Source: Syntrophomonas sp.
Lineage (GTDB): Bacteria > Bacillota > Syntrophomonadia > Syntrophomonadales > Syntrophomonadaceae
Assembly: GCA_016841425.1 (NCBI GenBank)
Contig: JAENZE010000022.1
Coordinates: 1-37,313 of the forward strand
Length of the DNA: 37,313 bases
Direction of reading: 5' to 3'
Shown here: positions 6,428-32,965 of the stretch, piece after piece
Numbering within the stretch: position 1 is the stretch's first letter
How the letters are laid out: every line of letters begins with the position of its first letter
Notes under the pieces: model-generated
The model's database searches: none
What the model was told of the DNA's origin: nothing
The model's input: the letters and a program-made list of their open reading frames with translations, nothing else
Translations under genes and position numbers: made by a program

Positions 6428-7255
6428 TTACTCCTGGAAGTTTATGATAAATAGCTGTTCATCTGCAGGTTCTAGAAGTTCGTCATTCGTTGCTTCATGT
6501 TTCACAGTTATGGTCAGGAGTTTCCCATCCTTTTCCCAGACGCTCTGTTCCAGCTCACTAGCATCGTTATATCTAAACCGGGGTGGATTGGCCAGACGGG
6601 CATTGCATAAACCCTGTAACACATCGGCCAGGCACGCTGAACCGCTTACAGTTATCTTTAACTCACTGGTATTTAGCTGACCAAAATAATCATCTGCGAT
6701 CAAGGCCATACGTACTCCAAGCAGCAGACCGGCACATTTCTCCTGATGGTGGTTCAATGCCTGCTTAAGAAAGATTTCCTGACGCATTTCCCGCTTTTTA
6801 GGGCGTATGTATGGGGTATGGGGAGAGAAAACGATTTCCTGCTCATAATAAGGTTTGATATCCAATACCGGGGTACCTTCTATAGCATCCAGGCCACTTA
6901 CATAAAGCAGATTATCCTCTACTCGTTCTAATCCGACCAGGGTCAACCCGATGGGGTTGGGCCGGCCTATGGCACGAATAGCAAAAACACCGTATTCCGG
7001 CAGATCAGAATTCACCTTGCCGGGAACCACCTTTAAAAGGTCACGGTCCGCCTTATGAAACCACATCTGTATCCACAGGTGAGAATTCTCAGTAATACGC
7101 AGCAAGCCCTGCTGGTATTCAGAAAATATTTCGATTACCGCATTGCCTCCTTTGATCGGAACATCGGCCGGCTCTTGATATTCACTTTTTACTATGCCTA
7201 TAGGCTTTAAGGTATAGATATCGGTTTCAACACTTGGAAACATTATATTGCACAT
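6428..7255 (-). CDS. TrmO/TsaA-domain protein fused to an FmdE-like domain
   Basis: Residues about 14-145 form a TsaA/TrmO domain (YTLKPIGIVKSEY, IGRPNPIGLT, EGTPVLDIKPY), the SAM-dependent family that methylates t6A37 in some tRNAs. Residues about 165-270 resemble FmdE: NHHQEKCAGLLLGVRMAL followed by SACLADVLQGL. FmdE is the small accessory subunit linked to Mo/W formylmethanofuran dehydrogenases. It closes the ECF transporter operon, 11 bases after EcfT. The start is uncertain: ATG at 7255, or ATG at 7243 (MFPSVETD). In some genomes TsaA-like proteins neighbour molybdenum-cofactor genes (recollection), so a role beyond tRNA is plausible here. Confidence 0.75.
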   Translation of the reverse strand: MCNIMFPSVETDIYTLKPIGIVKSEYQEPADVPIKGGNAVIEIFSEYQQGLLRITENSHLWIQMWFHKADRDLLKVVPGKVNSDLPEYGVFAIRAIGRPNPIGLTLVGLERVEDNLLYVSGLDAIEGTPVLDIKPYYEQEIVFSPHTPYIRPKKREMRQEIFLKQALNHHQEKCAGLLLGVRMALIADDYFGQLNTSELKITVSGSACLADVLQGLCNARLANPPRFRYNDASELEQSVWEKDGKLLTITVKHEATNDELLEPADEQLFIINFQE

Positions 7256-7266
7256 CCTTTCTTCAC

Positions 7267-7986
7267 TTAATAGCTAATGATAAGCATAAGGGTAATAGTA
7301 ATAAAAATCAGCATTACCGCATAATCTATCCAGATGAAATCCAACCTGCGCAGATAGGTGCGCCGGGGATAGGCCCGAAATCCCCGAGATTCCATAGCTA
7401 CAGCTAACTGCTGCGCTTTCAGCAGCGCTCCAAAAACCACCGGGAATAACAGACTGCGGAACAAATCTATTTTTCTCCCCCAGGATACCTGCTTCAGCTC
7501 CACCCCTCTTAACTGTATTGCGGTAACTACATTGACAAATTCATCCCTAAACAAGGGCAGGAAGCGCATGGCGATGGTTACCATAAAGGCCAATTCATAG
7601 GGTATTTTCCACTGAACCAGGCCTAAAATAAAATCCCTGGAGCTGAAAGTGGTGAAGATAAGGGCAGCGGATATTATGACTATGATCCGCAAAACCAGGC
7701 TGGCACCGGCCAGCAAACCCTGGCTGCTGACCAGGGCTGTAGACCCTAATGAGAGTAAGACTTCCCCGCCCCGGGTGAAGATACACTGGATGATAAAAAC
7801 AACCAGCATGAGCTGTAAGAAACGCTTCAAGTAAACCCATACCGAAGAGATGTCAATTCTAAACAGCAACAACAGCAGCAGGGTCACAAGCAGAAGGGGT
7901 AGCAGCTCCCCGGCACTGTTATAAATCAAAGCCAGGGTGGAGAGACAGATAACTATAACCATCTTCGTCCGGGGATCAAGTGTCAT
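7267..7986 (-). CDS. ecfT: ECF transporter transmembrane (EcfT) subunit
   Basis: This roughly 239-residue protein has five to six hydrophobic segments and the EcfT/CbiQ plan. LDPRTKMVIVICLS opens the protein, and the two cytoplasmic coupling motifs that contact the ATPases appear as AIQLRG and AMESRGF. An in-frame GTG start lies at 8016, but the ATG at 7986 has AAGGAA five bases upstream and starts MTLDPRTK, typical for the family. It overlaps the end of the second ATPase by 11 bases. It scaffolds the S component and the EcfA pair. Confidence 0.88.
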   Translation of the reverse strand: MTLDPRTKMVIVICLSTLALIYNSAGELLPLLLVTLLLLLLFRIDISSVWVYLKRFLQLMLVVFIIQCIFTRGGEVLLSLGSTALVSSQGLLAGASLVLRIIVIISAALIFTTFSSRDFILGLVQWKIPYELAFMVTIAMRFLPLFRDEFVNVVTAIQLRGVELKQVSWGRKIDLFRSLLFPVVFGALLKAQQLAVAMESRGFRAYPRRTYLRRLDFIWIDYAVMLIFITITLMLIISY

Positions 7987-8668
7987 AGCCGTTCCTTCCT
8001 TTTCGCTCACTATCACCCACTATGCGGCCCTTTTCCAGCTGTATAACCCGGTCAGCCAGGTGTTCGACAAAACCCATATCATGACTTATCAGGACCATCC
8101 CCCGACCGATAGAGGCGATTTTTCGCAAATAGCCCGCTAGAATCTTTTTGCGATAGGCATCCAGCCCTATAGTAGGTTCATCCAGGATCACAAACTCGTT
8201 TTCTGCGACCAGTACTGAGGCTATCGCCACTCGTTGTTTTTCTCCCTGGCTTAAAAGCAGGGGAAACACATGCCGATATTCAGCCAGCTGAAAAAATTCC
8301 AGGCAGAAATCTACTTTTTCCTTCACCCGGGCTGGCTCCCAACCCTGGTTGACCAGGCCAAAGCCGATCTCTTCAGCTACTGTAGCGCAAAAAAGCTGTA
8401 GATCAGGATTCTGAAAAACATAACCGATGCGCCGTCCGATTTGGGCCAGCGACATTTCGCTTACCGGCTCACCCTGCAGAAGGACCTTTCCTCCGGTGGC
8501 CTGCAAAATTCCGATCATTACTTTGCCCAGAGTGGTCTTACCGCTTCCGTTTGGTCCGATGATAGCGGTAATTGATTTTTGCTCTATTTCCAGGTTGATA
8601 TTCTCCAGCGCCATCCTGCTGAGTTTAGGATAATGGAAATTCACCTGGGTCAATGTTAAAAAATGCAA
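7976..8668 (-). CDS. ecfA: ECF transporter ATPase (EcfA)
   Basis: The 230-residue ABC ATPase has Walker A GPNGSGKTT (about 38-46), Q-loop VFQNPDLQLF, signature LSQGEKQR, Walker B FVILDEPTIGLD and switch His in LISHD. The FQNPD/QLF stretch is typical of ECF ATPases. It starts at TTG (8668), with GGAGG seven bases upstream. It overlaps EcfT downstream and follows the other EcfA by 33 bases, so the two form a heterodimer driving the S component. Confidence 0.9.
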   Translation of the reverse strand: MHFLTLTQVNFHYPKLSRMALENINLEIEQKSITAIIGPNGSGKTTLGKVMIGILQATGGKVLLQGEPVSEMSLAQIGRRIGYVFQNPDLQLFCATVAEEIGFGLVNQGWEPARVKEKVDFCLEFFQLAEYRHVFPLLLSQGEKQRVAIASVLVAENEFVILDEPTIGLDAYRKKILAGYLRKIASIGRGMVLISHDMGFVEHLADRVIQLEKGRIVGDSERKGRNGYDT

Positions 8669-8701
8669 CCTTATCCCTCCGGCTTTTATGTCTGTTGATC
8701 A

Positions 8702-9433
8702 TTAATCGATCAAGTGCTGGGCAGCCAGAAACTCCCGATCAGCTGTCATTGGTTCTATTGGTCCCCATCGGGCCAGGGCTCCTCGTTCCAAAACCATCAG
8801 GTGATCAGCAAAAGTAACGGTTTCCAAGCGGTGCTCAACCGCAATGATAGTCTTCCCGGCATCTTTGAGTCGTTTAAGCACATCTGCTACTCTCTGCACA
8901 GCCTGCTGATCCAACTGGGACATAACTTCATCCAGTATCAAAAGCGGCGGGTCCAGGGCTAGTACCGCAGCCAGAGCCACCAGGTGCTTTTCCCCTCCCG
9001 AAAGGTGATAAGGATTAGCTTCTATCAATGAGGAAATGCCCAACAGGTCAAGAACTTCATCCACTCTGGCCCGGATATCACCCGGAGGAAGACACAGGTT
9101 CTCAGGTCCAAAAGCTATTTCATCTTCCACGCTGGGTGAAAAAAGCTGGCTGTCCGGGTCCTGAAAAACTATTCCGACTTCTAGGGCCAGGCTGGCTGCT
9201 CTCAGTTTTTGGATATCCTTGCCGTCCAGCAGTATCTGTCCCTGCATTACTCCATCCCTTCTATGCCCGGCTATGCCGCTCAAACAATAGCAAAGGGTGC
9301 TTTTTCCGCAGCCGCTCAGGCCGGTTATCACCAGCATTTCTCCCCTGGCCATGCGAAAATTCATGTTCTTTAATACCAGCGGTCCTTCCGGCCAGTATCT
9401 ATAACTCAAGTCCTCAACAATTACCGCTTCCAT
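8702..9433 (-). CDS. ecfA: ECF transporter ATPase (EcfA, second copy)
   Basis: The 243-residue ABC ATPase has Walker A GLSGCGKST (about 38-46), Q-loop VFQDPDSQLF, signature LSGGEKHL, Walker B LLILDEVMSQLD and switch His in AVEHR. The D-loop region reads EVMSQLD rather than the usual EPTSGLD, so Pro and Thr are replaced in this copy while the other ATPase is canonical. Asymmetric ATPase pairs are normal for group I ECF systems. Confidence 0.9.
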   Translation of the reverse strand: MEAVIVEDLSYRYWPEGPLVLKNMNFRMARGEMLVITGLSGCGKSTLCYCLSGIAGHRRDGVMQGQILLDGKDIQKLRAASLALEVGIVFQDPDSQLFSPSVEDEIAFGPENLCLPPGDIRARVDEVLDLLGISSLIEANPYHLSGGEKHLVALAAVLALDPPLLILDEVMSQLDQQAVQRVADVLKRLKDAGKTIIAVEHRLETVTFADHLMVLERGALARWGPIEPMTADREFLAAQHLID

Positions 9434-9481
9434 AAACCTGCTTCCACCTCAAATTCATATTTCAACCCGTTAGTCTCCAGC

Positions 9482-10054
9482 TTACCCCTGGTTCATATCA
9501 TAGTTAGGCTTCTGGAACCTTCTTATCTGCTGTACGATCTCAAAGGCTATTAGACCACCTATACCCCCGGACAGGGCAGCAAGACTCAGACTGAAGAGCA
9601 GCGGCATTAAGGGAAACCGGTAATATACCAGATTCACCATAACAGTACCGGTCACATTGCATAAGAGCCCGGCCAGAAAGGCACAGGGCATACAGCAGAC
9701 CCGATGTCCAATTATTAATAGTCCCAGGTCGGCTATTACTCCTGGCATAGTATAGGTAAGCAGGCTCATCACCCCCTGTGAGCCGACCATGCCGGTAGCA
9801 ATGACCATGATAGCCTGCACCAGGCCGATCAAAGTCATAGTTCCCCTTTTACCTGTAATACCAAACCCCAGTACCAGCCAGATCATATATAATCCACCGG
9901 TGACCGCTCCAGGAGGAATGAGCAGGGGGCCGATTAATATATGGCTTAGAGGTGCAACAACCGGTTTAATAGCAATCCCCAGAGCCGACATCATAGCTAT
10001 GATAATCAAATCGTAAAGAGAAAATCTATCGAATATCTTCTGCCCTATCCCCAT
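9482..10054 (-). CDS. ECF transporter substrate-binding (S) component
   Basis: The 190-residue protein has about six hydrophobic helices. DLIIIAMMSALGIAIKP in the first helix contains the small-residue pattern S components use to contact EcfT. The following GPLLIPPGAVTGGLYMIWLVLG resembles the YkoE/ABC_cobalt-like S-component families, but I cannot assign the substrate. GGTG lies seven bases before the ATG. A 101-base gap separates it from the DUF2149 gene, and the ATPases follow directly. Operon context with surface-binding proteins and an ExbB-like channel suggests a ligand that must first cross the envelope. Confidence 0.82.
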   Translation of the reverse strand: MGIGQKIFDRFSLYDLIIIAMMSALGIAIKPVVAPLSHILIGPLLIPPGAVTGGLYMIWLVLGFGITGKRGTMTLIGLVQAIMVIATGMVGSQGVMSLLTYTMPGVIADLGLLIIGHRVCCMPCAFLAGLLCNVTGTVMVNLVYYRFPLMPLLFSLSLAALSGGIGGLIAFEIVQQIRRFQKPNYDMNQG

Positions 10055-10155
10055 ATCTTTTCACCACTCTTTAATAAAATGCATTTTTCTCGCTTTACCT
10101 GCAGGGCGCCTTAACCAGGAAACTATTCTGCACCAGTATCTTCAGCAGGATGAAA

Positions 10156-10470
10156 CTATTCACTGGTCACCATAAATAATTGCCCGGTATCAGGATCTTT
10201 ATAAACAGTTCCCATTTTTTCATAAAGGCCCCCTTCATTCTGGGTTTTGATCAGGTTCTCCTCTATATCTGGACTTTCAGTAACCTCCTGGCCCATCTGA
10301 ACTTCTACCTGCGCTCCTACCTGGTCCAGATTAACATTCCAGTGAATGACGAGAGAAAGCATTAAACCGCAGGCAAATACCAGCATAGCATCTACAATAT
10401 TAACTGCACCCTCCAGTGGATTTACTTCTTCCGCTGTCCTCAGTCTCTTACTCCTTAATCCCCCGTTCAC
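10156..10470 (-). CDS. DUF2149 protein, ExbD-like partner of the channel
   Basis: Short protein with one transmembrane helix, VNPLEGAVNIVDAMLVFACG and onward, then an extracytoplasmic acidic region. An Asp at residue 27 near the start of the helix matches in placement the essential intramembrane Asp of ExbD/TolR. The reading frame extends upstream to 10509, but that would overlap the ExbB-like gene by 62 bases. GTG at 10470, with GGAGGTG seven bases before it, leaves a 23-base overlap and is preferred. DUF2149 next to MotA/TolQ/ExbB proteins is known from methanogen genomes (recollection), where its function is undescribed. Confidence 0.8.
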   Translation of the reverse strand: MNGGLRSKRLRTAEEVNPLEGAVNIVDAMLVFACGLMLSLVIHWNVNLDQVGAQVEVQMGQEVTESPDIEENLIKTQNEGGLYEKMGTVYKDPDTGQLFMVTSE

Positions 10471-11101
10471 GGCCAAACACCTCCAATAAACTTTCCATAA
10501 ATGCTTCAAGTGAGCTCATATAATCTTCATACCATCTTCTCCGCAGACGAGAAATAGCAAAGCATATCGCAGCTGCTGCCAGACCTGAAACTGTAGCATC
10601 AAAGGCAGTGAGCAGAGAATCAGCCAAAGTCTTGGTATCACCCTGCCCCATAGCGATCAGACCCGGTCCGAGTGGAATTAGCGTAGCCATCAATCCAAAC
10701 ATGGGTCCCACCCGGGCGATCAGGTCAGTCCGAGAGGTTATTTTAGCATAATGGAGCTCCTCCTCGGATAATAACCTGCGGGCAACAGCCTGCAAAGATA
10801 CCTCCGGTAAGCTGCTGTGATTGATCAGCTCCCTTAAAGCAGCCTTCTGCCGTCGGAACAAATGACTGTTATTAATCTCCTCCATTATTTCCTCATTACT
10901 ATTGCCCTGAAAAGCTTCCAACATCTCTGGAATATTTATCTTTACTTTGCGCCGCTCGAAGATGATTTCCGCCATCAGCCCTCCGAACTCCACTACCGTA
11001 ACAGCCAACATGAGCAGCAGTACTGCAATGGTAGGCATAAGTAAGCCAGTGGAAATGGAATGCATGGTATCCTGGAGTGGGGTCAAAATAGAAGTTATCA
11101 C
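10448..11101 (-). CDS. MotA/TolQ/ExbB-family proton channel protein
   Basis: This 217-residue protein has an N-terminal helix (MPTIAVLLLMLAVTVVEFGG), a cytoplasmic helical middle and two further helices. The core RVGPMFGLMATLIPLGPGLIAMGQGD and AFDATVSGLAAAAICFAISRLR is the conserved TolQ/ExbB/MotA channel signature. It starts at GTG with GGAGG seven bases upstream; this GTG overlaps the stop of the anchored surface protein (ATGTGA), so expression is tightly coupled. It probably forms an ion-driven motor with the DUF2149 protein. Finding this in a monoderm-type lineage without TonB is notable. Confidence 0.9.
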   Translation of the reverse strand: MITSILTPLQDTMHSISTGLLMPTIAVLLLMLAVTVVEFGGLMAEIIFERRKVKINIPEMLEAFQGNSNEEIMEEINNSHLFRRQKAALRELINHSSLPEVSLQAVARRLLSEEELHYAKITSRTDLIARVGPMFGLMATLIPLGPGLIAMGQGDTKTLADSLLTAFDATVSGLAAAAICFAISRLRRRWYEDYMSSLEAFMESLLEVFGRERGIKE

Positions 11102-12351
11102 ATTGCTACCTCCCTTGCATATTCAATGTATCTTTTTACTGAGCCAAATATAAATAAGAGCAAAAATAGTATCGCAGCGTAAGTATCTAAAACATTGTCT
11201 TTTTCCTGCCGCTGCAGAGCTACAGCATCTGCAGACATCTCAAATACCCGCCAGGGTTGTTCACCTGCTTCTTCCAGGTATACAACATTTTCTGCCAGCT
11301 CCCGGTCAATCAAATGCTGTTGACTGCTTCCTGCTTCCTCTTCAGTCTGACCATTGCTTTTCGACTCACTACTGCCTGCCGTCCTGCTGTCCTGTGCAGC
11401 AGCTATCGGCTCCGGCCCGTTGACCACACAGGTGGCGGTTAATTCTCCAACTATGGTGGTAACGGTAATCACCGCGGTGCCCTCGCCAACCACTGTGACC
11501 AGGCCATTTTCATCAACTATTGCTGCTTCGGGGTTGCTGGAACTCCAGGTAACACTTTTTTCAGTGGCCTCTTCGGGATCTATATTTGCAGTCAGCTTTA
11601 CCGTGCTGCCCACTTTGAGATTCACCCAATCCTGATCAAGAGATACCTGGGAAGGCGGCATACCACCCAGCATGATTTCTATGGTATGTATCCATTTGGC
11701 TGATTGATAGGCATTATCCTCGGTGGCGTCTTTCTGCCCGAATAGGAGCCGAAACCGGGAGGAAGTATCAAAAGCGCTGAAATCCGGTTCAGCTTTATAC
11801 CTCTGCCAGTTATCCTTATAAGCTATTATCGGCTCTACCCGCACCGCTCCGTCTAAAGCCCCCTCCCGCGGAGTTTTGTTATCATAATCCCAGTGTGAAG
11901 CCAGGTTAGGGTAATAAAACCGGGGTGTGTCAAGTAATTCGGACCTATCCAGGTTGATATACCATCCAAATTGGATATCATTGGTATTAACATAGAAAGT
12001 TTGTATCGAGTTAACATCCACTCCTGCGTCTGTTAATAAGTCGCTTAATTTTACCCCGGCCGCAGCATCTATACATATTGCACCCATGCTATCGATAAAG
12101 GTATAAGCCTGTTGGACCTGGGGCAGTTTGTCAAAATCGGTCAGGGTGTAAACCTTTTTGGTATAATAAGGGCCTCCAAAATAGCCGACCTTGATGGTCA
12201 GAGTATCAGATGGTACTCCAGTACTGCCGCAGACAGCGCTGGCCGGATGCGGATCTATAAAACCCGGCAGACTGAGCAGTATTACTGCTATTAAAATAAA
12301 CATGATAAATCTAATGAGTCCGGAATGGGCTCTGCACACTTGCACTGGCAT
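11098..12351 (-). CDS. C-terminally anchored sulfite-oxidase-fold/Big2 surface protein
   Basis: Signal peptide (about 1-36), then a sulfite-oxidase molybdopterin-domain-like region (about 45-245): VYTLTDFDKLPQVQQAYTF, LSDLLTDAGVD, RFYYPNLASHWDYD. Next comes a bacterial Ig-like Big2 domain (VSLDQDWVNLKVGSTVKL, about 250-325), a Ser/Glu-rich linker and one C-terminal membrane helix (YAAILFLLLFIFGSV) with a short basic cytoplasmic tail. GGAG lies eight bases before the ATG at 12351, so the GTG at 12360 is rejected. Its stop overlaps the ExbB-like start. The topology would let its membrane helix contact the ExbB/DUF2149 complex, like a TonB-type transducer (inference). Confidence 0.78.
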   Translation of the reverse strand: MPVQVCRAHSGLIRFIMFILIAVILLSLPGFIDPHPASAVCGSTGVPSDTLTIKVGYFGGPYYTKKVYTLTDFDKLPQVQQAYTFIDSMGAICIDAAAGVKLSDLLTDAGVDVNSIQTFYVNTNDIQFGWYINLDRSELLDTPRFYYPNLASHWDYDNKTPREGALDGAVRVEPIIAYKDNWQRYKAEPDFSAFDTSSRFRLLFGQKDATEDNAYQSAKWIHTIEIMLGGMPPSQVSLDQDWVNLKVGSTVKLTANIDPEEATEKSVTWSSSNPEAAIVDENGLVTVVGEGTAVITVTTIVGELTATCVVNGPEPIAAAQDSRTAGSSESKSNGQTEEEAGSSQQHLIDRELAENVVYLEEAGEQPWRVFEMSADAVALQRQEKDNVLDTYAAILFLLLFIFGSVKRYIEYAREVAM

Positions 12352-12467
12352 TATATTCACTCCATAAAAGTCAAATACTACGATTTTCTCCTTATAACTT
12401 CTATATTCTAAAGCTTCGGATTTAGCCGCGTATGGTTATGATCCAACTGCTATCGGTTAAGCAATTT

Positions 12468-13907
12468 TTATAGTTGCTGGCATATCCGATAGATGATGGC
12501 GGCTGCCTCAGCCCGGCTAGCGGACGAGGACGGAGCAAAGGTATCTGCAGTCTTACCATTAACTAACCCTCGGCTTACCACTACTGCGACTCCCTTCTGT
12601 GCCCAGGATGCAATGTTCCTGCTATCTATAAATCGCTGCAATATTTCTTCCGGGTTCAGGGAAGAAGCGGCTGACTCAGGCAGTGCCCGGGAAATGATGA
12701 CCGCCATCTGTTCCCGGCTTATATTATCATCCGGACCAAAAGAATCTGTATCGTATCCGCTCATCAGACCTGCATTTACTGCCGCAGCTATGTAATCGTG
12801 ATGCCAGACGCCAGCCGGTACATCTTTGAAACTCAGGCTCGAACCCCGGAGGGGTTCGATATTCAGTGCGGCCGTTAACATTCTGGCGAACTGAGCCCGG
12901 GTAACCTTCTCTTCCGGTTTGAATTCCGTATCACTCATACCGCTGACTATTCCCCTGGCCACCAGGTACTTGATATTATCGTTGGCCCAATGCCCTGCCG
13001 TATCGGCAAAATTCTTTTCAGCCTGGTAGGTAAAAGTAACTGCCTCACTATCCAGCCGGCCAAAGCCGATGGTCCTGGCCTTAATGACCGTGTCTTCATT
13101 GACCGCTATGGGGGCATTGAGAAAGGCCTGGAAATTGGGGTAGCTGATATTGAAGATATGGCTGCCATAGGTTGGTTCAGAACCGTCCAGAGTGTAATAA
13201 ATCATGACATTATCCGGCACTTCATCCGGCTTCACCAGTGAGACTTTGGTTCCAGCGTTGATGGTGCCGGAAGGGGTATCCACCTCAGGTACCGGCCAAT
13301 GTCTTAACTTCTCGCTAGATACTTCAATCACACCATTATCGATTATCTGCTGGATCATGACACAATCCCCACCAGTGGGCTCATTGGGCGCTACCTGGCC
13401 GAAGCATAATCTGCCCTGGGAATCATCCAGAGCGATTATAGTTTCAACTGCAGTTTTCCCGTCTTCATTGCGCTGCGGAGGCCAGCTAGCCACATCGCCC
13501 TCCACTTCTCCATCCGGGAAATAATAACGCTGTTCTTCCAGCATCTGCTTGATGGTATAGTCGATATGTACATAAATCCCCCCGCTCGGTTTGAATTTAA
13601 GCAAGGTGGCATTATCTTTTAATCCCGCTTCATCCAGTATGCTCTGCAGGGTCGGCCCGGTCCGGTCCCTAAAAACCTTCAAGGCCGGCCAGTGATTATA
13701 GCCGGAATAGGTATAGGTTTTCTGGGGCAGAGCCCGCAGATCAGACATGGTAAACTTGACCTCTTTTCCTACCCCATCCCCGGTCACGGTCAATACGATC
13801 TCTTCTTCAGCGACTGCCTTCTGCTGGGGAACTATGAGAAATAAACTGAATAACAGACTTATCCCTACTACCGCTGCCAGTATTCTCCTGAATCCCAAAC
13901 TTTTCAT
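12468..13907 (-). CDS. SLH surface protein with sulfite-oxidase-like and chitobiase-like domains (type A)
   Basis: Signal peptide to about residue 33, then a sulfite-oxidase-fold domain (about 36-200) with the type A hallmark LPQKTYTYSGYNHWP. A chitobiase C-terminal-type beta domain (about 210-295) carries IYYTLDGSEPTYGS, and three SLH repeats (about 303-479) begin FADTAGHWA, with FKDVPAGVW and a third repeat following. The Cys that binds Mo in sulfite oxidases is replaced within SGYN, so enzymatic Mo chemistry is not expected. SLH repeats should bind pyruvylated cell-wall polymer. A 10-bp-arm structured element lies about 215 bases upstream. Confidence 0.82.
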   Translation of the reverse strand: MKSLGFRRILAAVVGISLLFSLFLIVPQQKAVAEEEIVLTVTGDGVGKEVKFTMSDLRALPQKTYTYSGYNHWPALKVFRDRTGPTLQSILDEAGLKDNATLLKFKPSGGIYVHIDYTIKQMLEEQRYYFPDGEVEGDVASWPPQRNEDGKTAVETIIALDDSQGRLCFGQVAPNEPTGGDCVMIQQIIDNGVIEVSSEKLRHWPVPEVDTPSGTINAGTKVSLVKPDEVPDNVMIYYTLDGSEPTYGSHIFNISYPNFQAFLNAPIAVNEDTVIKARTIGFGRLDSEAVTFTYQAEKNFADTAGHWANDNIKYLVARGIVSGMSDTEFKPEEKVTRAQFARMLTAALNIEPLRGSSLSFKDVPAGVWHHDYIAAAVNAGLMSGYDTDSFGPDDNISREQMAVIISRALPESAASSLNPEEILQRFIDSRNIASWAQKGVAVVVSRGLVNGKTADTFAPSSSASRAEAAAIIYRICQQL

Positions 13908-14120
13908 ATTAATCTTTTATCCACCTTTCCTTTTAATAGGGCCAGGCACCAAGTAATTAACTCAGCCAAACATATCTGTATGACACAAGAGCAGACGAAA
14001 ATTGTACGGATGAATGCTTAAGACCGCTTGGGTCCGGTCTTACTTTCTCCTTATTAATTAGCTACTGATGCTTTTAACTTCAAGGGCTGAAACAAGTTAT
14101 ATTCCCGCTAAAAAAATCGT

Positions 14121-14215
14121 CTTTGTCCCGTTTCGGGGTAGTACCCGCAACCTTAATAGTGACCAACGGGAACATCAGTAGTACCCGGAGGGTGAAGGGT
14201 GACCGCGGGACAAAG
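14121..14215 (-). other. Structured intergenic element with two 40-nt repeat units
   Basis: Perfect 10-bp arms CTTTGTCCCG (14121-14130) and CGGGACAAAG (14206-14215) enclose two units with an exact 40-nt period. On the plus strand GTAGTACCCG is at 14138-14147 and 14178-14187, and GTGACC at 14159-14164 and 14199-14204. The strand is uncertain; minus is assumed because all genes run that way. It could be a leader RNA for the SLH gene starting at 13907 or a small palindromic mobile element. The rest of 13908-14291 shows only a small hairpin (AGACCG/CGGTCT near 14020-14040) and a REP-like GGGCCAGGCACC at 13939. Confidence 0.55.
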
Positions 14216-14291
14216 CATAATATTCATTTACAACAACAAATAGCATGGGTGAAAGTTTATTTATTAAGTTAATACTTAACAGGCCCTCTCC

Positions 14292-14852
14292 TTACTGTAG
14301 TTCCAGGCTAACCAGGTATTTTGTAAATCGCAGTCCGGACTCGTCACTGCAGACAATCAGGTGCAGGCTCCCCTCCTCATCGCTTAAGGTTCTTAAAGGT
14401 TCGCCATAATCGAGATACATCACATACACCTCATCCGCCTTCTGGATTTCCGACATCTCCATCACCTGACTGTAGTAATCGATCCCCCTGGTGATGACTT
14501 TGGTATATTTTTGGCTGATGGACGGGTCAATACTGTTCAGCACATCCAGCAGCGGCACCCCGGTATACTGATGTTCTATCGGAGTATCGCTGTCACTATT
14601 GCCACAGGCGCCGCTGCAATCAGGCTTAACTGTTAATCTTTTTTCAACCGCTGCCATCTCCTCGATATCAGCAATCGTGAATCTGCCCAGGATTTCCTCA
14701 TCAGCCGTAATTATTACCGTCCCTTCCTGCAGGCCGCCCCTATCATGGCTGAAATACCATGAAACGGCCGCAATTACCAGCAGCAGTCCTATTCCTGCGA
14801 TCAGCCATTTTAGGGAACTGCTGCTCCTGCTTTCCTCGCTGCTCTTTGTCAT
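14292..14852 (-). CDS. Membrane-anchored minimal sulfite-oxidase-fold protein with retained Cys
   Basis: Residues 1-13 are Ser-rich and cytoplasmic, 14-34 form a membrane helix without a clear cleavage site, and the remainder is a small extracytoplasmic domain. FTIADIEEMAAVEKRLTV, YTGVPLLDVLNSI and DYYSQVMEMSEI match the sulfite-oxidase-like neighbours. Unlike most of them it keeps Cys at the ligand region: KPDCSGACGN (C79, C83), close to the CAGN/CSGN motif of true molybdopterin-binding members. It is the only stand-alone, N-terminally anchored version here, and could act as the membrane-proximal acceptor (inference). Confidence 0.72.
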   Translation of the reverse strand: MTKSSEESRSSSSLKWLIAGIGLLLVIAAVSWYFSHDRGGLQEGTVIITADEEILGRFTIADIEEMAAVEKRLTVKPDCSGACGNSDSDTPIEHQYTGVPLLDVLNSIDPSISQKYTKVITRGIDYYSQVMEMSEIQKADEVYVMYLDYGEPLRTLSDEEGSLHLIVCSDESGLRFTKYLVSLELQ

Positions 14853-14886
14853 CTTCCTGCCCCCCTAAAGATCAACTGCTTTTTCA

Positions 14887-16707
14887 TCAGTCAGCAATCA
14901 AACCAGCATATGATAAAAAACGCTTTAGAACAGCGGCTGTCTGAGCCCGATCCAGCTCGCTTTGCGGAGCAAACTCTCCTGCTGCTGTTCCCTCTACGAT
15001 CCCGGCCTCTACGATCAGGGCTATCTCCTGTCGGGCCCAGGAGGAAATTTTATCTTTGTCTTTGAACTTGGCCAGGATTCCTTCCTGTTCTGCCACTGAA
15101 AGGTAATTTTCCTTTCCTACCAAATAACGGGCCCGGCCTAACATTACTGCCATTTCTTCCCGGGTGATACAGCCCTCAGGCTGAAAGATACCCCCCTTAT
15201 AACCACAAACGATATTCTGGGCCATAGCTCCGGCAATGCTGCCCGAATACCAGTCGGCCGCGGCCACATCGGTAAACTGTCCTTCTGCTAATACTTTTTC
15301 CTGCAGACCTAAAGCCCTAACCAGCAGCACAGTAAATTCCGCCCGGGTGATCTTGCTCTCCGGTTCATAGGCAGCACTGCTCCTGCCGGTTATCAGCCCT
15401 CTCCTGGCCAGTACCTGGATATCCTCTTTAGCCCAGCTATCTTCGATATCTGCAAACGTCAGCCCGCTCCCTGACGGTTCTTTATTCAAGCCAAATACCC
15501 CGCCAGTAATGGCCAGCTCTGGCTCAGATCCCGGCTTTTCTGGTACGGTGAAATCAAAAACTGCCGTTTCACTATCCAGTTTTCCTGGCCAGACCGCTTT
15601 GGCCTTGACCCTGGTATCAGCCTCGATCACTATAGGTTCATCCTGGCCTGCCATCGGGCCACAGCCATGCAGATTGAATATCCTGCTGTCCAGATCAGGT
15701 TCACTGCCATCAGTAGTATAATAGATCTTGGTTTTGACATTCCCGCTTAAAAACACCTGGGTACCCGGGCTCACTTCCCCGCCGGCGGTCTCTACTTTCT
15801 TACCGGAAAGCGGATCGATGATCCTGGCCACCGGTGGTTCCCAGCGCTGCAGAGGATCGCTAGTAACGGTAATAGTCTGCAGCAGCTTGACAAAGGTTAA
15901 AACCGTCTGTTCGGTTGCTGCCCTCTGCCCCAGGCATAATACCGGGGTATCAGCCGTATCCATATCATTATAATCATCCGATCTTTCCATCCGTTTCAGT
16001 GCTATCAGGGGCTCTACCTCGGTTCTCCCGGGGAACACGTAGCGCTTCCGTTGCAGTAATTCCTCCAAGGTAAAATCACTCCAGTAACCGTCAGTACCCA
16101 TGAAAGTAATCAAGCGGGCATCGGCTGTGATACCGGCATGATCCAGCAGCGCCTGCAGGGGAATTCCTTCCGCCGCTACCGGGAAATCCATGGGAAAATC
16201 ATTGGTAGCCGAGAATACTGTCCTTACCTGCGGCATCGCTTCCAGCTCGGCCCGGGTAAAAACCGTATTCTCCCTGACACCATCTCCCATTATGCATAAC
16301 AAACCGATGGTCTGAGTGATCCCAGCATCAGCATATCCGTTTGCTTTTACTGTGATCTTATAGTCTTTTGAAGTTCTGAATATCGATCTGTCAATGATGA
16401 TTTTGCCTATACTTACAGAGTATTTCTCACCATCCAAAGCTGTTCCATCAACCAGGATACCGCTTATGACTTCCCTCCAGCTCTCATTATCGTTAAAAGT
16501 CAATTCCACCGACTTATTAACTACATTAAGCTTGGTATCTGCCAGCAGGGCTGGCGGTGTTCTCAAGGAATTCAAACGTGGCAGTACCTCGTTATCACTG
16601 GCGGCAGCACAGCTAAAGGCTGACAGCAGGCTAGTGCATATCAGCATTACTAGTGTCAGCGACATGATCAGTATTATGAAGCTTGTTTTGCTTCTTATCT
16701 CCAGCAC
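14887..16707 (-). CDS. SLH surface protein with Shr-HID-like, sulfite-oxidase-like and chitobiase-like domains (type B)
   Basis: About 606 residues. A signal peptide is followed by a domain like PF07550 (Shr-like hemoglobin-interacting, formerly DUF1533): VELTFNDNESWREVISGILV to VKANGYADAGITQTI. Then comes a type B sulfite-oxidase-like domain (FTRAELEAMPQV, FPVAAEGIPLQALLDHAGI, MGTDGYWSDFTLEELL, LGQRAATEQT), a chitobiase-type domain (IYYTTDGSEPDLDS, LHGCGP) and three SLH repeats. The frame is open up to an ATG at 16749, but GGAGGG seven bases before the GTG at 16707 marks the real start, giving a clean signal peptide. The position equivalent to the Mo-ligand Cys is Ser/Ala. Confidence 0.8.
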   Translation of the reverse strand: MLEIRSKTSFIILIMSLTLVMLICTSLLSAFSCAAASDNEVLPRLNSLRTPPALLADTKLNVVNKSVELTFNDNESWREVISGILVDGTALDGEKYSVSIGKIIIDRSIFRTSKDYKITVKANGYADAGITQTIGLLCIMGDGVRENTVFTRAELEAMPQVRTVFSATNDFPMDFPVAAEGIPLQALLDHAGITADARLITFMGTDGYWSDFTLEELLQRKRYVFPGRTEVEPLIALKRMERSDDYNDMDTADTPVLCLGQRAATEQTVLTFVKLLQTITVTSDPLQRWEPPVARIIDPLSGKKVETAGGEVSPGTQVFLSGNVKTKIYYTTDGSEPDLDSRIFNLHGCGPMAGQDEPIVIEADTRVKAKAVWPGKLDSETAVFDFTVPEKPGSEPELAITGGVFGLNKEPSGSGLTFADIEDSWAKEDIQVLARRGLITGRSSAAYEPESKITRAEFTVLLVRALGLQEKVLAEGQFTDVAAADWYSGSIAGAMAQNIVCGYKGGIFQPEGCITREEMAVMLGRARYLVGKENYLSVAEQEGILAKFKDKDKISSWARQEIALIVEAGIVEGTAAGEFAPQSELDRAQTAAVLKRFLSYAGLIAD

Positions 16708-16815
16708 AATATCTCCCTCCCTGCAGCCTATCCCCACTTTCCAGTTCACTTCAGCCAGCCTGATCTGTAATAAACAGCCTAACTCTCATCTAATCCATTT
16801 TATAGAATTAAATCC

Positions 16816-18300
16816 TTACAAGAGGTTCAGCTCTCTGCACATACCTGCAATCATAACCGCAGCCTCAACGCGAGTAGCAGGTGCCTGCGGACCAAATGAA
16901 CTCCCATTCATTGCATCTACAATGCTGCAGTTTGCAAGTAAAGCTATATCCTGTCTAGCCCAGGACGATATAGTACCCTTATCACTGAACCTGTTCAAGA
17001 TCTGATCGGCATCACTCACAGATATTTCCATGCCGGAACGCGTTTTAAGGGCCCGGGCAATCATAACCGCCAGCTGTTCATGATTCACATAATCATCCGG
17101 GGCAAAAGTACTGGCGTTATAGCCGGTTATCAAACCGGCCTGTACCCCAGCCCGAACCGGTTTATAATACCAGGAGCTGACCGGTACATCGGTAAAATTT
17201 AGGGGTTGACCCTGCTCAGGAGTGATTTGCAAAGCTGTGGTCAGCAGTTTGGCAATCTGAGCCCGGGTCAATTTTCCTTCCGGTTGGAATTCAGTGATAC
17301 TCATCCCGTTAATGATCCCTTTGTCTACCAGGGCATATACGTCATTCCGGGCCGGGTGGTTCTGCAGGTCCACAAACTGCCTGCTCCCTGCTGAAGATGA
17401 TGTCGACCCTGCCACCAGATATTCATAGGTGGCCACCTCGCTGTCCAGTTTACCCATACCGATAGTCCTGGTCTTGATAGTTAAACTCTTATCAATAGTT
17501 ATGGCTTTATTCAGCTCCGGCTGGAAGCTGGGATAGCTGATATTGGCTATCTTGCTCCCATAAGCGGGTTCACTGCCATCCAGGGTATAATAGACCAGGG
17601 CATGATAAGGAGTTCCATCCGTATATTGAATAGTGACCTGGGTTCCGGCTGGCACCATCCCGGGTGCCACATCTGGCTGTGGAGCATCCCACTGCTGCAG
17701 CGGGGTGGTCAATACCTCTATGGTTCCTCCCTGATACAGCCCGCTTAACATGCGGTTTATGCAGCAGGTGGGTTCATTGATGGCACACTGTCCATAAAGA
17801 AGTTTGCCGTGGTTCTTATTCAAGGCAATCATAGTTTCTACCAGTTTTTTGCCTTTTTCACTGCGAACCGGGGGCCATATACTGAGGTTTTCCTCTTCTT
17901 CACCCTCTGGAAAGTAGTAGCGGGGTTCCTCCAAAAGCTGGTCTCTGGTAAATTCAAAATAAACCGCATCATTCACTTTTACCCGAATAAGGGTAGCATT
18001 ATCTTTTAATCCGGCTTGATCCAGGATAGTTTTAAGAGTTGGTCCCTGCATGTCCTTAAAAATCTGCAGGGAGGGCCAGTGGTTATAGCCGGAATAGGTA
18101 TATTTAGCCTGAGGCAGGGCCTCCAACTCGGCCAGGCTGAATTCCACCATTCTTTCCACCCCATCCCCGGTTACCGTAAGAGCAATTTCACCATCCGCAG
18201 CTGATAGCTGCACCGTACTAACAAACAGGCAGCTGAAGATTATACTCAAGCCCAGTACAAGGACCAGCATTTTGTGAAAACTTAAGTTTTTACAGATCAT
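16816..18300 (-). CDS. SLH surface protein with sulfite-oxidase-like and chitobiase-like domains (type A)
   Basis: The 494-residue paralogue of the 12468-13907 product has the same order: signal peptide, type A domain (LPQAKYTYSGYNHWP, DQAGLKDNATLI, RYYFPEGEEE), chitobiase-type domain (VYYTLDGSEPAYGS) and three SLH repeats (from about 315). The type A binding region again has no Cys; CCINRM near residue 180 is a different site. AGGAGGTG lies 13 bases before the ATG, longer than usual, in a GC-rich folded leader. It precedes the type B gene, repeating the A-then-B order seen at 31261-26781. Confidence 0.83.
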   Translation of the reverse strand: MICKNLSFHKMLVLVLGLSIIFSCLFVSTVQLSAADGEIALTVTGDGVERMVEFSLAELEALPQAKYTYSGYNHWPSLQIFKDMQGPTLKTILDQAGLKDNATLIRVKVNDAVYFEFTRDQLLEEPRYYFPEGEEEENLSIWPPVRSEKGKKLVETMIALNKNHGKLLYGQCAINEPTCCINRMLSGLYQGGTIEVLTTPLQQWDAPQPDVAPGMVPAGTQVTIQYTDGTPYHALVYYTLDGSEPAYGSKIANISYPSFQPELNKAITIDKSLTIKTRTIGMGKLDSEVATYEYLVAGSTSSSAGSRQFVDLQNHPARNDVYALVDKGIINGMSITEFQPEGKLTRAQIAKLLTTALQITPEQGQPLNFTDVPVSSWYYKPVRAGVQAGLITGYNASTFAPDDYVNHEQLAVMIARALKTRSGMEISVSDADQILNRFSDKGTISSWARQDIALLANCSIVDAMNGSSFGPQAPATRVEAAVMIAGMCRELNLL

Positions 18301-18317
18301 AATGCTTTTTGGGCACC

Positions 18318-18432: not shown

Positions 18433-18483
18433 AATGTTAACATTAACTATATTGTGATATCTGTTTTAATCAAGAAATTATGT

Positions 18484-19035
18484 TTAGTTATCTGTAAGGT
18501 AAATGGCATCCAAATCTTTGCACCATTCTGACATAGTATCATCCCCTGGATAGCCATATAATTGACCATGGAAATTCCGCAGGCAGTCGGTGCTGCTTAA
18601 AGTTTCGCCAACTTCACAGAATTGGAGAGCAATCACTGCGTCTATTGCTACAGCTGCACCACCCGGAGTTGCATAATAATACCCATAAATGGTACTCATG
18701 GGCAGATTGCCGGTACTCCAGCTGCCGTCCACATCTCTGAAATCGATATAATCAATATTGCCTACAGTAATACCAGCATCTTCCAATACATCCACCAGCA
18801 ACGGTCCGGCAGTGTTAAAATAATGATAGGATCCGCCACCTTTGCAGTAATAACTTGAATAAGTTTTATTATATTGGTCGAAATCATCTTCTAACTCACT
18901 GGCACTATATGATGTTACATAATTGTTGTTTAAATAAATATCCAGGGAATCGGATGCAAAGGCTGCCGGACAGGCTAAACACAGCAGTGCCGCTATTAAC
19001 ACTAGAATCCCCAGTATTTTTTTATTTTTTTTCAT
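18484..19035 (-). CDS. Small secreted sulfite-oxidase-fold protein
   Basis: The 183-residue protein has a clear signal peptide (KKNKKILGILVLIAALLCLACPAAFA) and a single domain. SASELEDDFDQYNKTYSSYYC, GPLLVDVLEDAGITVGNID and the closing LDAIYL follow the sulfite-oxidase-like pattern of the neighbours in shortened form. It has no SLH, chitobiase or membrane anchor, so it should be released or held by partners. Four Cys in the mature part may form disulfides. It is flanked by near-identical inverted repeats, hinting that it arrived or moves as a cassette. A good ribosome site precedes the ATG. Confidence 0.7.
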   Translation of the reverse strand: MKKNKKILGILVLIAALLCLACPAAFASDSLDIYLNNNYVTSYSASELEDDFDQYNKTYSSYYCKGGGSYHYFNTAGPLLVDVLEDAGITVGNIDYIDFRDVDGSWSTGNLPMSTIYGYYYATPGGAAVAIDAVIALQFCEVGETLSSTDCLRNFHGQLYGYPGDDTMSEWCKDLDAIYLTDN

Positions 19036-19064
19036 TTTTATACCTCCCCATATTTATAGTCGGC

Positions 19065-19156: not shown

Positions 19157-22100
19157 TTATTCTTCGCTTACCGTAAAACTCAGCTCCTGATTGGCTGCCG
19201 CCCGGGGCACCATGCTGGCCCAGTCTTCCCAGACAAAGACGTCTACATAGGCTTCCCCGCTGATACCTGACGGCAGGGTGAAATCGCTGCTGACCGTGGT
19301 GCCGCTTACCGGAATGTCGGTGGAAAAAACGCCTACACAGCCCAGGACCTGACCGCCGCTTTCGCTGCTGGCGTTGGCGCCGCCCCGTACCTGTATAATG
19401 GTAAGGCCGCCGGTGGCACTGCCATAATTATTATCTATCCCGGCCTGGATGCGGTAGCCGCCCTGGCTGGGTACCGTGCTGATTTCACTGCCGGCCGAAT
19501 TGAGCAGATCTACCTCATCAATTACAAAATAGTGCCCGGACAGTACATTCAGTCCTTCCAGCATCGCATTGATATCATCATTATCAGCTGGACTTACATC
19601 ATAGTACTGGAGAGTTCCGTCCCGGAAGATAATAATACCATTTGATATAGTTAATACATTGCTTAAACCAGTCAGGATCTCATCGTCAAAATTGTCTAAA
19701 TTACCCCAGCACACAACGCTGCCGTCTATCTTTATGGCTTTGCTTCCTCCTTCGGACCCAAGGCTTACAGCTGCAACATCATGAAGGCCTACCGGAACAT
19801 TGCGGCATCCAGAATAGTTTTCGCCCCATGCGACTACAGTGCCATTGTTTTTCAGGGCGAGACATCTCTCACTTCTGATACAAACATCTACTACCCCGCT
19901 CAAACCTTCTGGTACATCACACTGTCCGCAATAGTATTGGTTCTGTACATCTTGGTTGCTCCCCCAGGCTACTACCGTTCCATCGTGTTTCAAAGCCATG
20001 GAATAATAATGTTCTGCGAACACCCGGGCTACATTATCCAAACCACCTGGTACATCACATTGTCCATAATCATTATTCCCCCATGCTACTACTGTTCCGT
20101 CTTCTTTCAATGCCAGGAAATGATCATTGCCGGCAGCAATAGCAGTAACATTATCTAATCCGTCCGGTACCTGGCACTGCCCGTAAGAATCATTGCCCCA
20201 GGCGACCAGGGTGCCGTCATTTTTCAAAGCCAGGCAGCAGTCATTAGTGTTCTGGGTTAGGGTTATAGCGACAATGTCCTGTGCGCTATCCGGCACCTGA
20301 CACTGCCCGTCGTCGTCAAGTCCCCAGACGACTACGGTTCCGTTTCTCTTCAGGGCCATTATATTGCTAGATGAAGTGGTTATGGCAGTAACGCTGTTCA
20401 AGCCTTCCGGAATCTGAGCCAGATTAAAGTCATCTCTGTCAGACGTCTGGATAAGTTTGACGGTTCCATCCATATTTAAAATAGCTAACCCATATTCTGT
20501 AGAACCGATCTTAGCCGGGCCTTGAACATAGCTGCTGGCAGCATATTCTGCCGGGGTCTGGGGAATATCCGGTGATGGACCGCTGTAAGGGACCTCATCC
20601 TCAAGCAGATTCAGGCTGGAAGGCATATATGGTTCCAGGTTACTGGTATTTTCCCAAATCCCCAATGTACCATCCTCATTAAAAGCTAACATGTATTTAT
20701 CAACGCCTGATCCAATTACAGCCAGGGGTTTGTTTTCCAGTTCCAGAGGAATACTTATCGAACAGGCGTAGGTTCCTCCTCCGCCCCATACAGCCACGCT
20801 TCCATCCCATTTCAAAGCAGCCACATATCTGTACCCGGCAGCAATCCCCTTGATATACTGCAGGTTCAGAGCTTCTATTGCATACTTGGAGCTAGCTGCA
20901 CCCCACACTACCACAGTTCCATCATTTTTCAGAGCTACATTGTTTCTTTCCCCTGCTGCAATGGCTACTACGTCCTGCTTTGCCTCATCCGGTATTGCAT
21001 AATCAAACCATGTACTCGAACCCCAGATTCTTACCTCACCGCTGGACAACAATGCCAGCAACTGACGACTGCCGCCCTGAATATCTACAACCGTACTCTG
21101 ACTCAAATCTGAGGGTATACTTGACAAATAGTAATCATCAGACCCTCCGCCCCAGGCCCATACTTTGCCATCTGTGTCGAGAGCCAATGAAGTTTTACTA
21201 ACGGCGCAAATATCTACTATCACTTTGTCATTTAATACTTCCGGCACAGTGCACTGACCCAGATCATTCATACCCCAGGCCACCACGGTGCCATCTGCCT
21301 TCAAAGCCAGGCTGTGATAATTACCGGCTGATACGGCAATAACATCATTTACTTCAGGCGGCATATTGCACTGTCCAGCACCGTTATCGCCCCAGGCTGC
21401 CACGGTGCCATCACTTTTCACCACTAGAATATGATCTCTTCCAGCCGCAACACGTCTGGAATAACAAGCATAATCACTCTCTTGATAGGCTGCCGGAGTT
21501 GAAGGCAGCTCAGGCAGCACATAGTCGGCACTAACTTTCTTCACATGCAGGGTGTAACAGCGCTGACTGCCGCTGGCTGCGGTTACTTCGATCTCAATGG
21601 GATTATCACCCACGTTCAGCTCTGCTCCATTTATGACTGCGGTTTCACCACCGATAACTGGGGTTCCATTGACCTCCAAAGTCGCAGTGCTGCTGTAAGG
21701 CTGGGCTGTAATGCGGACTTCATTGACACTATTAGGAACATCCACGATTCCTTCAGTCTCATCCGAGCTGAATGTAGGATAGATGCCGCATACAGTTGTA
21801 GTAGTACCGTCATAGGTTTCCACACTCAAACTGTCCAAGTCAGCATTATCGCTAATAGGCCGGGTAACGGTGATGGTGTAGGTCTTCTCTATTGTTTCAT
21901 CCCGAGAGGTTACTACAACATCTATTGGATTCTCTCCCACTGTCAGGCCGCTCACCGTCTGGGCGGTGCCGCTGAATGCTGCTGCCCCGCCTATGGTCAA
22001 AGCAGCATTTGTATCTACAGTGCTGGCAGTAATGTCTAGGCTCTCTGCCTCACTGGATATAGTTATTGCATATGCGGTAATCGCAGGATCGAAGTCCTGG

Positions 22101-26705: not shown

Positions 26706-26780
26706 TTCCACCAATTCTCCTTTCCTCCCCTTGAGTCACCCTTTATCCGCTTATACAGATCATTGGGAATACCAAGATAT

Positions 26781-29564: not shown

Positions 29565-29599
29565 TTATACTCTCCTTTCTACAACATTGGGCAGTTCGA

Positions 29600-32496: not shown

Positions 32497-32665
32497 AAAA
32501 AACTTCTGCCAAAAGAGTATAGACAGAAGTTTAAAACTATCCTGATACTCCTTTCCAAATGCGGGAGGCGGCAAAATTTCTCTCACCACCCTCGGGTTTT
32601 TGCCCTGGGCTGCTAAACCATAGACTGAATCCTTAGGTTTAACAGCTCGGAGTCGTTATTCGGTT
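32497..32665 (-). ncRNA. Riboswitch-like leader RNA, copy B (proximal)
   Basis: Copy of the element at 32796-32965 with an exactly parallel layout: closing pair ACTCC/GGAGT, a 10-bp stem (CTGTTAAACC at 32636-32645 with GGTTTAGCAG at 32610-32619, minus-strand sequences), a GGCAAAA/TTTTGCC stem around ACCCGAGGGTGG, and a 3' terminator hairpin ACTTCTG/CAGAAGT (32502-32530) followed by six U. It lies about 170 bases upstream of the first surface gene. No known class was recognised by eye. Confidence 0.6.
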
Positions 32666-32795: not shown

Positions 32796-32965
32796 AAAAA
32801 ACTTCTGCCAAAAGAGTATAGACAGAAGTTTAAAACTATCCTGATACTCCTTTCCAAATGCGGGAGGCGGCAAAATTTCTCTCACCACCCTCGGGTTTTT
32901 GCCCTGGGCTGCTGAACCATAGACTTGAATCCTTAGGTTCAACAGCTCGGAGTTATTATTCGGTT
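32796..32965 (-). ncRNA. Riboswitch-like leader RNA, copy A (distal)
   Basis: This copy is nearly identical to copy B, offset by 299-300 bases. Its 10-bp stem pairs 32936-32945 with 32909-32918. Compared with copy B the pair at 32940/32914 is G-C instead of A-U, a compensatory double change that keeps the stem. A one-base indel in the loop shows the conservation is structural rather than coding. It ends in ACTTCTG/CAGAAGT (32801-32829) and U6. A weak promoter candidate (TTGAAC-16-TAATAA) lies at 33031-33058. Confidence 0.6.

Follow-up and report, generated by a model that had tools for sequence, protein, structure and literature searches.

An ExbB/DUF2149 motor with sulfite-oxidase-fold surface proteins and an ECF importer in Syntrophomonas: a candidate system for acquiring a molybdenum/tungsten pterin cofactor

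ExbB-type motors energise uptake across outer membranes and serve envelope maintenance and motility. In Bacteroidota, a pair consisting of an ExbB-family and a DUF2149 protein is known as hmuU/hmuV from the iron-starvation-induced hmu operons (PMC10434189); the membrane-anchored CobN-type protein next to the pair, HmuS, has been shown to be a haem de-chelatase (PMC12583661), and HmuT, HmuU and HmuV are uncharacterised (PMC13227078). Here we analyse a related gene cluster from a 37,313-nt stretch of a Syntrophomonas sp. genome (contig JAENZE010000022.1; ‘the window’ refers to this stretch at its full length), in which an ExbB/DUF2149 pair is flanked by surface proteins of the sulfite-oxidase (SUOX) fold and by an energy-coupling factor (ECF) importer, in a run of genes preceded by two riboswitches of the molybdenum/tungsten cofactor (Moco/W) class. 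We give roughly even chances to the cluster being an acquisition system for a molybdenum/tungsten (Mo/W) pterin cofactor – Moco, its tungsten counterpart Tuco, molybdopterin or a close relative – that operates in a cell with no outer membrane.

The cluster is a variant of the Hmu-like ExbB/DUF2149 systems. It shares with HmuYRSTUV the ExbB-family (HmuU) and DUF2149 (HmuV) components (PMC10434189); HmuS, which handles its cofactor outside the cytoplasm and has terminal membrane helices (PMC12583661, PMC13227078), would correspond to an anchored protein encoded directly upstream of ExbB, the ‘head’, which presumably also handles a cofactor. In contrast to Hmu, the head has a SUOX rather than a CobN fold (a CobN-type HmuS, PF02514, has no match in the host genome), there is no TonB receptor, TonB or outer membrane, the regulators are Moco riboswitches and an ECF importer is encoded in the same run. 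The Ton and Tol systems (ExbB-ExbD-TonB, TolQ-TolR-TolA) similarly combine an ExbB-family channel with a small transmembrane partner, its Asp in the register of ExbD Asp25, and a third protein with one membrane helix; here, however, DUF2149 is not recognised as ExbD, the helix of the third protein is C-terminal and accompanied by a SUOX domain, and both TonB and the outer membrane are missing. The core genes, with the studied feature originally set at 6428-14852, and the riboswitches are:

32831..32964, minus strand: Moco/W riboswitch aptamer 1 (RF01055), 89.8 bits, gathering score 36; terminator at 32800-32830 and overlapping antiterminator
32532..32660, minus strand: Moco/W riboswitch aptamer 2 (RF01055), 83.7 bits; terminator at 32501-32531, same terminator/antiterminator layout
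11098..12360, minus strand: head, with SUOX domain, Big_2 domain, disordered linker and C-terminal membrane helix; AlphaFold2 predicted local distance difference test (pLDDT) mostly >80 in both domains, structural matches
10448..11101, minus strand: ExbB-family channel; PF01618 (MotA_ExbB) 36 bits, cut-off 22.9
10156..10470 (open reading frame open to 10509), minus strand: DUF2149 protein, single transmembrane helix with invariant Asp27; PF09919 41.6 bits, cut-off 27.1; start placed by conservation
9482..10054, minus strand: ECF S component, YkoE type; PF09819 49.3 bits, cut-off 25.2; fusion homologue Z 24.0 to YkoE
8702..9433, minus strand: EcfA; PF00005 96 bits; best NCBIfam match ECF_ATPase_1, below its cut-off
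7976..8668, minus strand: EcfA; PF00005 106.5 bits
7267..8016, minus strand: EcfT (CbiQ); PF02361 108.3 bits
6428..7255, minus strand: TrmO-FmdE fusion; PF01980 (TrmO_N) 99.8 bits, PF02663 (FmdE) 31.1 bits

All ten genes named in the initial annotation of this DNA are present where it placed them, on the minus strand, and open reading frames and Pfam bear out its gene order (SUOX-fold proteins, ExbB, DUF2149, ECF S-A-A-T, TrmO-FmdE); the Pfam scores of TrmO_N-FmdE, EcfT, both ATPases, the S component, DUF2149 and ExbB all exceed the respective cut-offs. The overlaps it described at the head/ExbB junction (4 nt) and between the second EcfA and EcfT (11 nt from the inner ATG) stand, while its ‘23 bases between’ ExbB and DUF2149 are in fact a 23-nt overlap, given the conserved DUF2149 start at 10470. 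The same-strand run has a 384-nt gap at 13908-14291 and extends past 14852 through eight further surface-protein genes (SUOX domains, SLH, RCC1, cadherin-like) up to 32327, with the two riboswitches preceding its first gene. As the same annotation had remarked for TonB, profile searches of the whole host genome gave no match to TonB_C, Omp85 or ExbD, which agrees with the host being, as judged from its genes, monoderm.

Each window aptamer is followed by a hairpin (AACUUCUG...CAGAAGUU) and a U run, and an alternative helix (GGAGUAU/AUACUCU) would take up the 3' strand of the aptamer closing helix together with part of the terminator; the terminator and antiterminator states are computed to differ by no more than about 1 to 2.5 kcal/mol. 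This layout is predicted to be a ligand-repressed (OFF) transcriptional switch. With loops longer than 8 nt allowed in the search, a length that the loops of these terminators exceed, all 14 riboswitches examined had a nearby terminator of -10.9 kcal/mol or lower, as compared to 18/520 shuffles and 26/540 random stretches (about 4%). The window aptamers have a short GGG/CCC stem where P3 would be, a feature that may bear on the preference for the Mo or the W cofactor. Tandem and triple Moco RNAs are documented in PMC2408646, which counts at least 15 copies in S. wolfei; its passages on these RNAs do not describe the gene cluster analysed here.

The association with the riboswitches recurs among relatives. 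In the order-level set of 63 genomes (a class-level search gave the same 63), a same-strand Moco riboswitch lies within about 21 kb in six of the eight loci with a visible upstream region (the window, G044:C63, G025, G006, G028 and the second G071 locus); the binomial probability of such a count is about 2e-7, a rough figure that assumes about 13 riboswitches per roughly 3-Mb genome and applies to related loci. In two loci, L023 and L024, just one gene separates the riboswitch from the head, and Moco riboswitches are also found at Pelotomaculum, Sporotomaculum and Dethiobacter loci and at one of the seven rumen-type Bacillota loci tested. We strongly infer that the cluster belongs to a Mo/W-cofactor regulon with feedback repression.

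Motor and importer genes also travel together. Across the 63 genomes DUF2149 occurs in 15, EcfS in 16 and both in 13 (Fisher p 5e-9, kinship ignored), and the three genomes with EcfS alone are <90% complete; in several genera the two lie in the same region. The linkage of ExbB/DUF2149 to ECF genes in related genomes, on which the initial annotation made its proposal depend, was therefore found. It does not extend to the rumen-type relatives, which replace the ECF genes with a FecCD/Peripla_BP_2 importer, so that an ECF importer is not an obligatory partner of the motor. More widely, a genome scan with the ExbB alignment found 384 genome stretches and yielded 80 named loci that span Syntrophomonas, Pelotomaculum, Desulfoscipio, Sporotomaculum, Petroclostridium, Dethiobacter, Anaerovorax, Mogibacterium and rumen clostridia. 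Among named genomes, the closest ExbB relative comes from a Syntrophomonas sp. metagenome-assembled genome, and Syntrophomonas wolfei subsp. methylbutyratica is in the same set. In 70 of these 80 loci the gene immediately upstream of ExbB encodes a SUOX-fold protein, and 78 contain DUF2149; among the remaining loci, L128, L157, L160, L167, L176 and L184 have a head that is displaced, divergent or cut by the contig end and carries the same tail. In the Syntrophomonadaceae loci that were read, SUOX-fold protein, ExbB and DUF2149 are adjacent. Recurring in many species, the arrangement is not due to chance.

The AlphaFold model of the head, built with 17 orthologues, comprises the SUOX domain (residues 53-231), the Big_2 domain (233-318), the disordered linker (319-391) and the C-terminal helix (390-419). 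Pfam gives no sulfite-oxidase-fold call for this protein; on VIA-align, the model matches SoxC (Z 12.5, 143 aligned residues, 2.9 Å), chicken sulfite oxidase (Z 12.4, 151 aligned, 3.4 Å) and PruR (7kom; Z 12.4, 125/134 aligned, 2.7 Å). The model thus supports a SUOX Mo-domain fold for the head, in line with the sulfite-oxidase fold initially assigned to the anchored protein (Z 12.4-12.5 to the sulfite oxidase family). No Mo-ligating Cys is conserved among the 17 heads, which makes binding likelier than Mo catalysis; this Cys is present in only some of the small SUOX proteins and not conserved in most SUOX domains, and no conserved set of metal-binding residues was found across SUOX domains. 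The lack of a conserved Cys, together with the OFF-switch layout, disfavours the surface SUOX proteins being ordinary Moco enzymes. PruR, a secreted SUOX-fold protein, likewise has no Mo-ligating Cys and binds pterins (PMC13259868), but signals to DcpA, whereas the proteins described here have several domains and are tied either to the S-layer or, as predicted for the head, to an ExbB-type motor. The surface proteins other than the head are:

31293..32327, minus strand: SLH surface protein, first gene past the riboswitches; PF00395 145.3 bits
29600..31261, minus strand: SUOX-fold surface protein with two SUOX-type regions; PF00174 31.4 bits, cut-off 24; N-terminal domain in the SUOX seed alignment
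26781..29564, minus strand: SUOX-fold protein with SLH domains; PF00395 113.8 bits, SUOX by alignment
23016..26714, minus strand: RCC1/cadherin-like surface protein with a purple-acid-phosphatase-type domain, within the run; Pfam, homologues near heads in relatives
19157..22831, minus strand: RCC1/cadherin-like surface protein, within the run; Pfam
18484..19035, minus strand: small secreted SUOX-like protein (weak); no Pfam match, by-eye alignment with SUOX domains
16816..18300, minus strand: SUOX-fold protein with SLH domains; SLH 89.3 bits, SUOX by alignment
14887..16749, minus strand: SUOX-fold protein with SLH domains and a Shr-like haemoglobin-interacting domain; PF00395 105.7 bits, PF07550 84.8 bits, SUOX by alignment
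14292..14852, minus strand: small SUOX-fold protein with N-terminal membrane anchor; PF00174 (Oxidored_molyb) 23.8 bits, just below the cut-off of 24; homologues in many loci
12468..13907, minus strand: SUOX-fold protein with SLH domains; SLH 135.4 bits, PF00174 weak (E 0.006)

The C-terminal membrane helix sets the heads apart: it is present in 62/67 SUOX-fold proteins adjacent to ExbB as compared to 7/164 other SUOX-fold proteins of the same loci. The head-tail profile also matches the C-terminus of a CobN/Mg-chelatase protein located directly upstream of ExbB in Desulfovirgula thermocuniculi (L153; E 2.8e-6), a head that scores 187.7 bits on PF02514, and has no match to the CobN-type protein of L016, a locus from another family of the same phylum. 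A tail that is common to two unrelated folds, both adjoining ExbB/DUF2149, is what a motor-coupling element would be expected to look like, and the suggestion of the initial annotation that this helix could be the transducer gains support accordingly from both the counts and the CobN-type head.

On sequence grounds, the identity of the ExbB channel is secure at the family level. The Asp in the sole membrane helix of DUF2149 is invariant (94/94 sequences) and on hhalign this helix aligns in register with ExbD Asp25, although the profile comparison is not significant; for this reason ‘ExbD-like’ is an analogy when applied to DUF2149. Homology to ExbD was rejected: a PDB profile search and hhalign align the Asp-bearing helix alone, and not significantly, and there is no match to PF02472 (ExbD/TolR) in the whole genome.

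The CobN loci of Bacillota show the same motor with another head. L016 (6324-12401) encodes a CobN-type protein, DUF2149, ExbB and DUF2162 behind a cobalamin riboswitch, together with FmdE and TsaA-like genes and with ABC genes of the oligopeptide/nickel type, the last assigned by reading. L016 and L153 share with the window ExbB and DUF2149, and additionally the FmdE and TsaA-type genes in L016 and the C-terminal tail in L153; they differ in the chelatase-fold head, tetrapyrrole-type regulation and other importers. As far as gene content tells, L016 is the tetrapyrrole counterpart of the window system, its motor combined with CobN and a cobalamin riboswitch rather than with SUOX and Moco riboswitches. 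TrmO_N and FmdE domains accompany ExbB/DUF2149 loci of both the Moco and the cobalamin type, fused in the window (6428-7255) and separate in L016 (12848-14067).

ECF transporters are importers. In the window the S, A, A and T genes lie within one run, as in group I ECF transporters such as YkoEDC, with which the set shares the family and fold of its S component (in a fusion homologue, the S domain gives Z 24.0 against YkoE, 5edl) and dedicated A, A and T genes. Of the four thiamine contacts of YkoE that were compared (W49, E77, Q95 and Y46; PMC5037267), however, the window type of S component keeps none (the aligned residues are Y, V, P and G), while E77 and Q95 are retained in the fusion type; on these contact residues, thiamine is disfavoured as the ligand of the window S component. 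Also unlike YkoEDC, the S components are linked or fused to SUOX domains. Fusions of the S component to a C-terminal SUOX-fold domain occur in five genomes. AlphaFold models the S part of the fusion well and leaves the SUOX part mostly at pLDDT <50, and so the assignment of the fused domain relies on Pfam (29.6 bits on PF00174 in L106, cut-off 24), on hhalign against the small SUOX proteins (96.7%, controls <1%) and on a profile match to SoxC (E 0.003). The fusions are good evidence that the S component and the SUOX domain would work together in a direct partnership. A further EcfS copy, on contig 9 of the host, is not regarded as a pseudogene, since the stop codons reported in it reflect a match overrunning an intact 179-aa open reading frame.

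A second type of cluster (L095, L097 and, in the host’s own genome, L096) has, besides Moco riboswitches and SUOX proteins, genes for a DUF4405-like protein, ApbE, EcfS, a small SUOX protein and EcfA, followed in L095 and L097 by EcfT and MobB (the L096 stretch ends inside EcfA). L096, on contig C9 at 10000-29900, has three Moco riboswitches, ApbE and a gene for a 2678-aa surface protein next to its SUOX, EcfS and EcfA genes. In Mogibacterium-type loci the ECF genes are replaced by a FecCD permease, an ATPase and a Peripla_BP_2 protein (FecCD plus binding protein in 20/36, ECF S in 0/36), AOR is near in 16/36, and MobB-FdhD, MoaD-like or MoeA genes are also close. Three such loci from rumen or gut bacteria, L166 (5702-18900), L174 and L186, bring the motor and the FecCD importer together with genes for tungsten AOR, MoaD-like proteins and either a MobB-FdhD fusion or MoeA, and may represent an island for tungsten acquisition. 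Taken together, the riboswitches, the cofactor-synthesis genes and the genes for Mo/W enzymes point to a Mo/W cofactor. The interpretation given in the initial annotation, an ion-driven step that would pass a ligand from surface proteins to the ECF S component, is partly supported. It named no ligand and did not notice the riboswitches, the occurrence of MobB, MoeA and AOR genes nearby in relatives, or the kinship with HmuU/HmuV.

The SUOX fold holds pterins in sulfite oxidase and in PruR. Under the favoured reading, acquisition of a Mo/W pterin cofactor, S-layer-bound SUOX-fold proteins would collect the cofactor, or material bearing it, at the cell surface; the SUOX-fold head, on its flexible linker and C-terminal membrane helix, would present the ligand, with the helix predicted to dock to the ion-driven ExbB/DUF2149 motor; and the motor may pull on or reshape the head so that the ligand is released or stripped. 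The ligand would then enter through the YkoE-type ECF importer (in the rumen-type relatives, the FecCD/Peripla_BP_2 importer), and Moco would shut off expression via the tandem transcription-terminating riboswitches. Here we infer the identity of the ligand, the inward direction of transport and the mechanical role of the motor. A more specific version, a dedicated uptake machine for Moco/Tuco or molybdopterin in which the ExbB/DUF2149 motor works on swappable heads – SUOX for Mo/W pterins, CobN for tetrapyrroles – with no outer membrane to energise, we put forward tentatively, its chances being closer to one in three. Searches of open-licence papers on DUF2149 and Moco import found no description of this system.

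Several observations weigh against acquisition of a pterin cofactor. Since the host encodes MoaA, it has its own route to the pterin, and the system would add to synthesis without taking its place. The pocket of PruR is thought to be too small for Moco (PMC13259868). The riboswitches lie ~20 kb from exbB, and while the strand is the same throughout, there are gaps and a terminator-like hairpin (22972-23004) in between. Two of the eight order-level loci (G012 and the first G071 locus) have no Moco riboswitch, many loci show no importer within 10 kb, and the neighbouring ApbE, DUF4405 and Fer4_5 genes might point to a redox function in place of acquisition.

The importer of the rumen-type loci bears on the strongest rival, metal stripping, which we consider unlikely, at about one chance in five. 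The SUOX head would be the Mo/W counterpart of the haem de-chelatase HmuS, with the motor driving extraction of Mo or W from an external cofactor or from thiometallates; the metal would be the nutrient, and the importers would bring in the metal once freed, or else a metal complex or the pterin. HmuS, beside its own ExbB/DUF2149 pair, does remove iron from haem (PMC12583661), and a FecCD/Peripla_BP_2 importer near AOR suits metals or chelates. The window importer, however, is of the YkoE vitamin class and not of the CbiMN/NikMN metal class, and no set of metal-binding residues was found to be shared by the SUOX domains.

The redox genes could instead reflect outward delivery, with the ECF complex or the motor supplying pterin or Moco to surface SUOX-fold proteins active in extracellular electron transfer, much as FLEET-type ECF genes give flavin to ApbE. 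ApbE, DUF4405, Fer4_5 (NapH-like) and Gx-type genes are present in several clusters, and DUF4405 with ApbE marks extracytosolic electron transfer (PMC11334425). We regard this as improbable, and more so than metal stripping: proteins that use Moco would not be expected behind a switch that Moco turns off, the Mo-ligating Cys is unconserved in the heads and in most SUOX domains, and the importing direction of ECF transporters is opposite. Sensing is more doubtful still, in our estimate little better than one chance in seventeen: following the precedent of SUOX-fold pterin sensing by PruR (PMC13259868), external pterins would be signals that the SUOX-fold proteins bind, and the anchored head, together with ExbB/DUF2149, would relay occupancy, as PruR does to DcpA, but the unit has importers and EcfS fusions beside it rather than a conserved signalling output gene. 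Finally, uptake of haem or another tetrapyrrole as in Hmu, with the riboswitches acting on the upstream surface genes alone, is the least probable, since, despite the match of ExbB/DUF2149 to HmuU/HmuV and the Shr-like haemoglobin-interacting domain on the surface protein at 14887-16749, Moco riboswitches and MobB/MoeA/AOR neighbours recur across lineages, the host genome has no CobN family protein, and no haem-enzyme or cobalamin riboswitch association was seen in SUOX-type loci.

The literature describes the passage of Moco and other pterins across membranes as unknown (PMC9793310, PMC13259868), and the cluster offers concrete candidate genes for it. If true, a unit of motor and head conserved in monoderm cells, its heads exchanged between cofactor-binding folds, would amount to a general motor for cofactor handling and provide a testable mechanism for the uncharacterised HmuT, HmuU and HmuV (PMC13227078). 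The organisms concerned live as syntrophs or gut anaerobes, and many of them have Mo/W enzymes.

Some further features accompany the surface genes. The Shr-like domain (PF07550) on the SLH/SUOX protein at 14887-16749 could signify capture of cofactor-bearing proteins. The two RCC1/cadherin-like proteins (1200 aa each; 19157-26714) recur near heads in relatives, and one relative has a c-di-GMP-I riboswitch (L027, 1252-1336, minus strand) upstream of one of its SUOX-fold surface genes. Upstream of the window riboswitches, at 33575-35799, two open reading frames resemble, on reading by eye, an IS21-type transposase pair (IstB/IstA).

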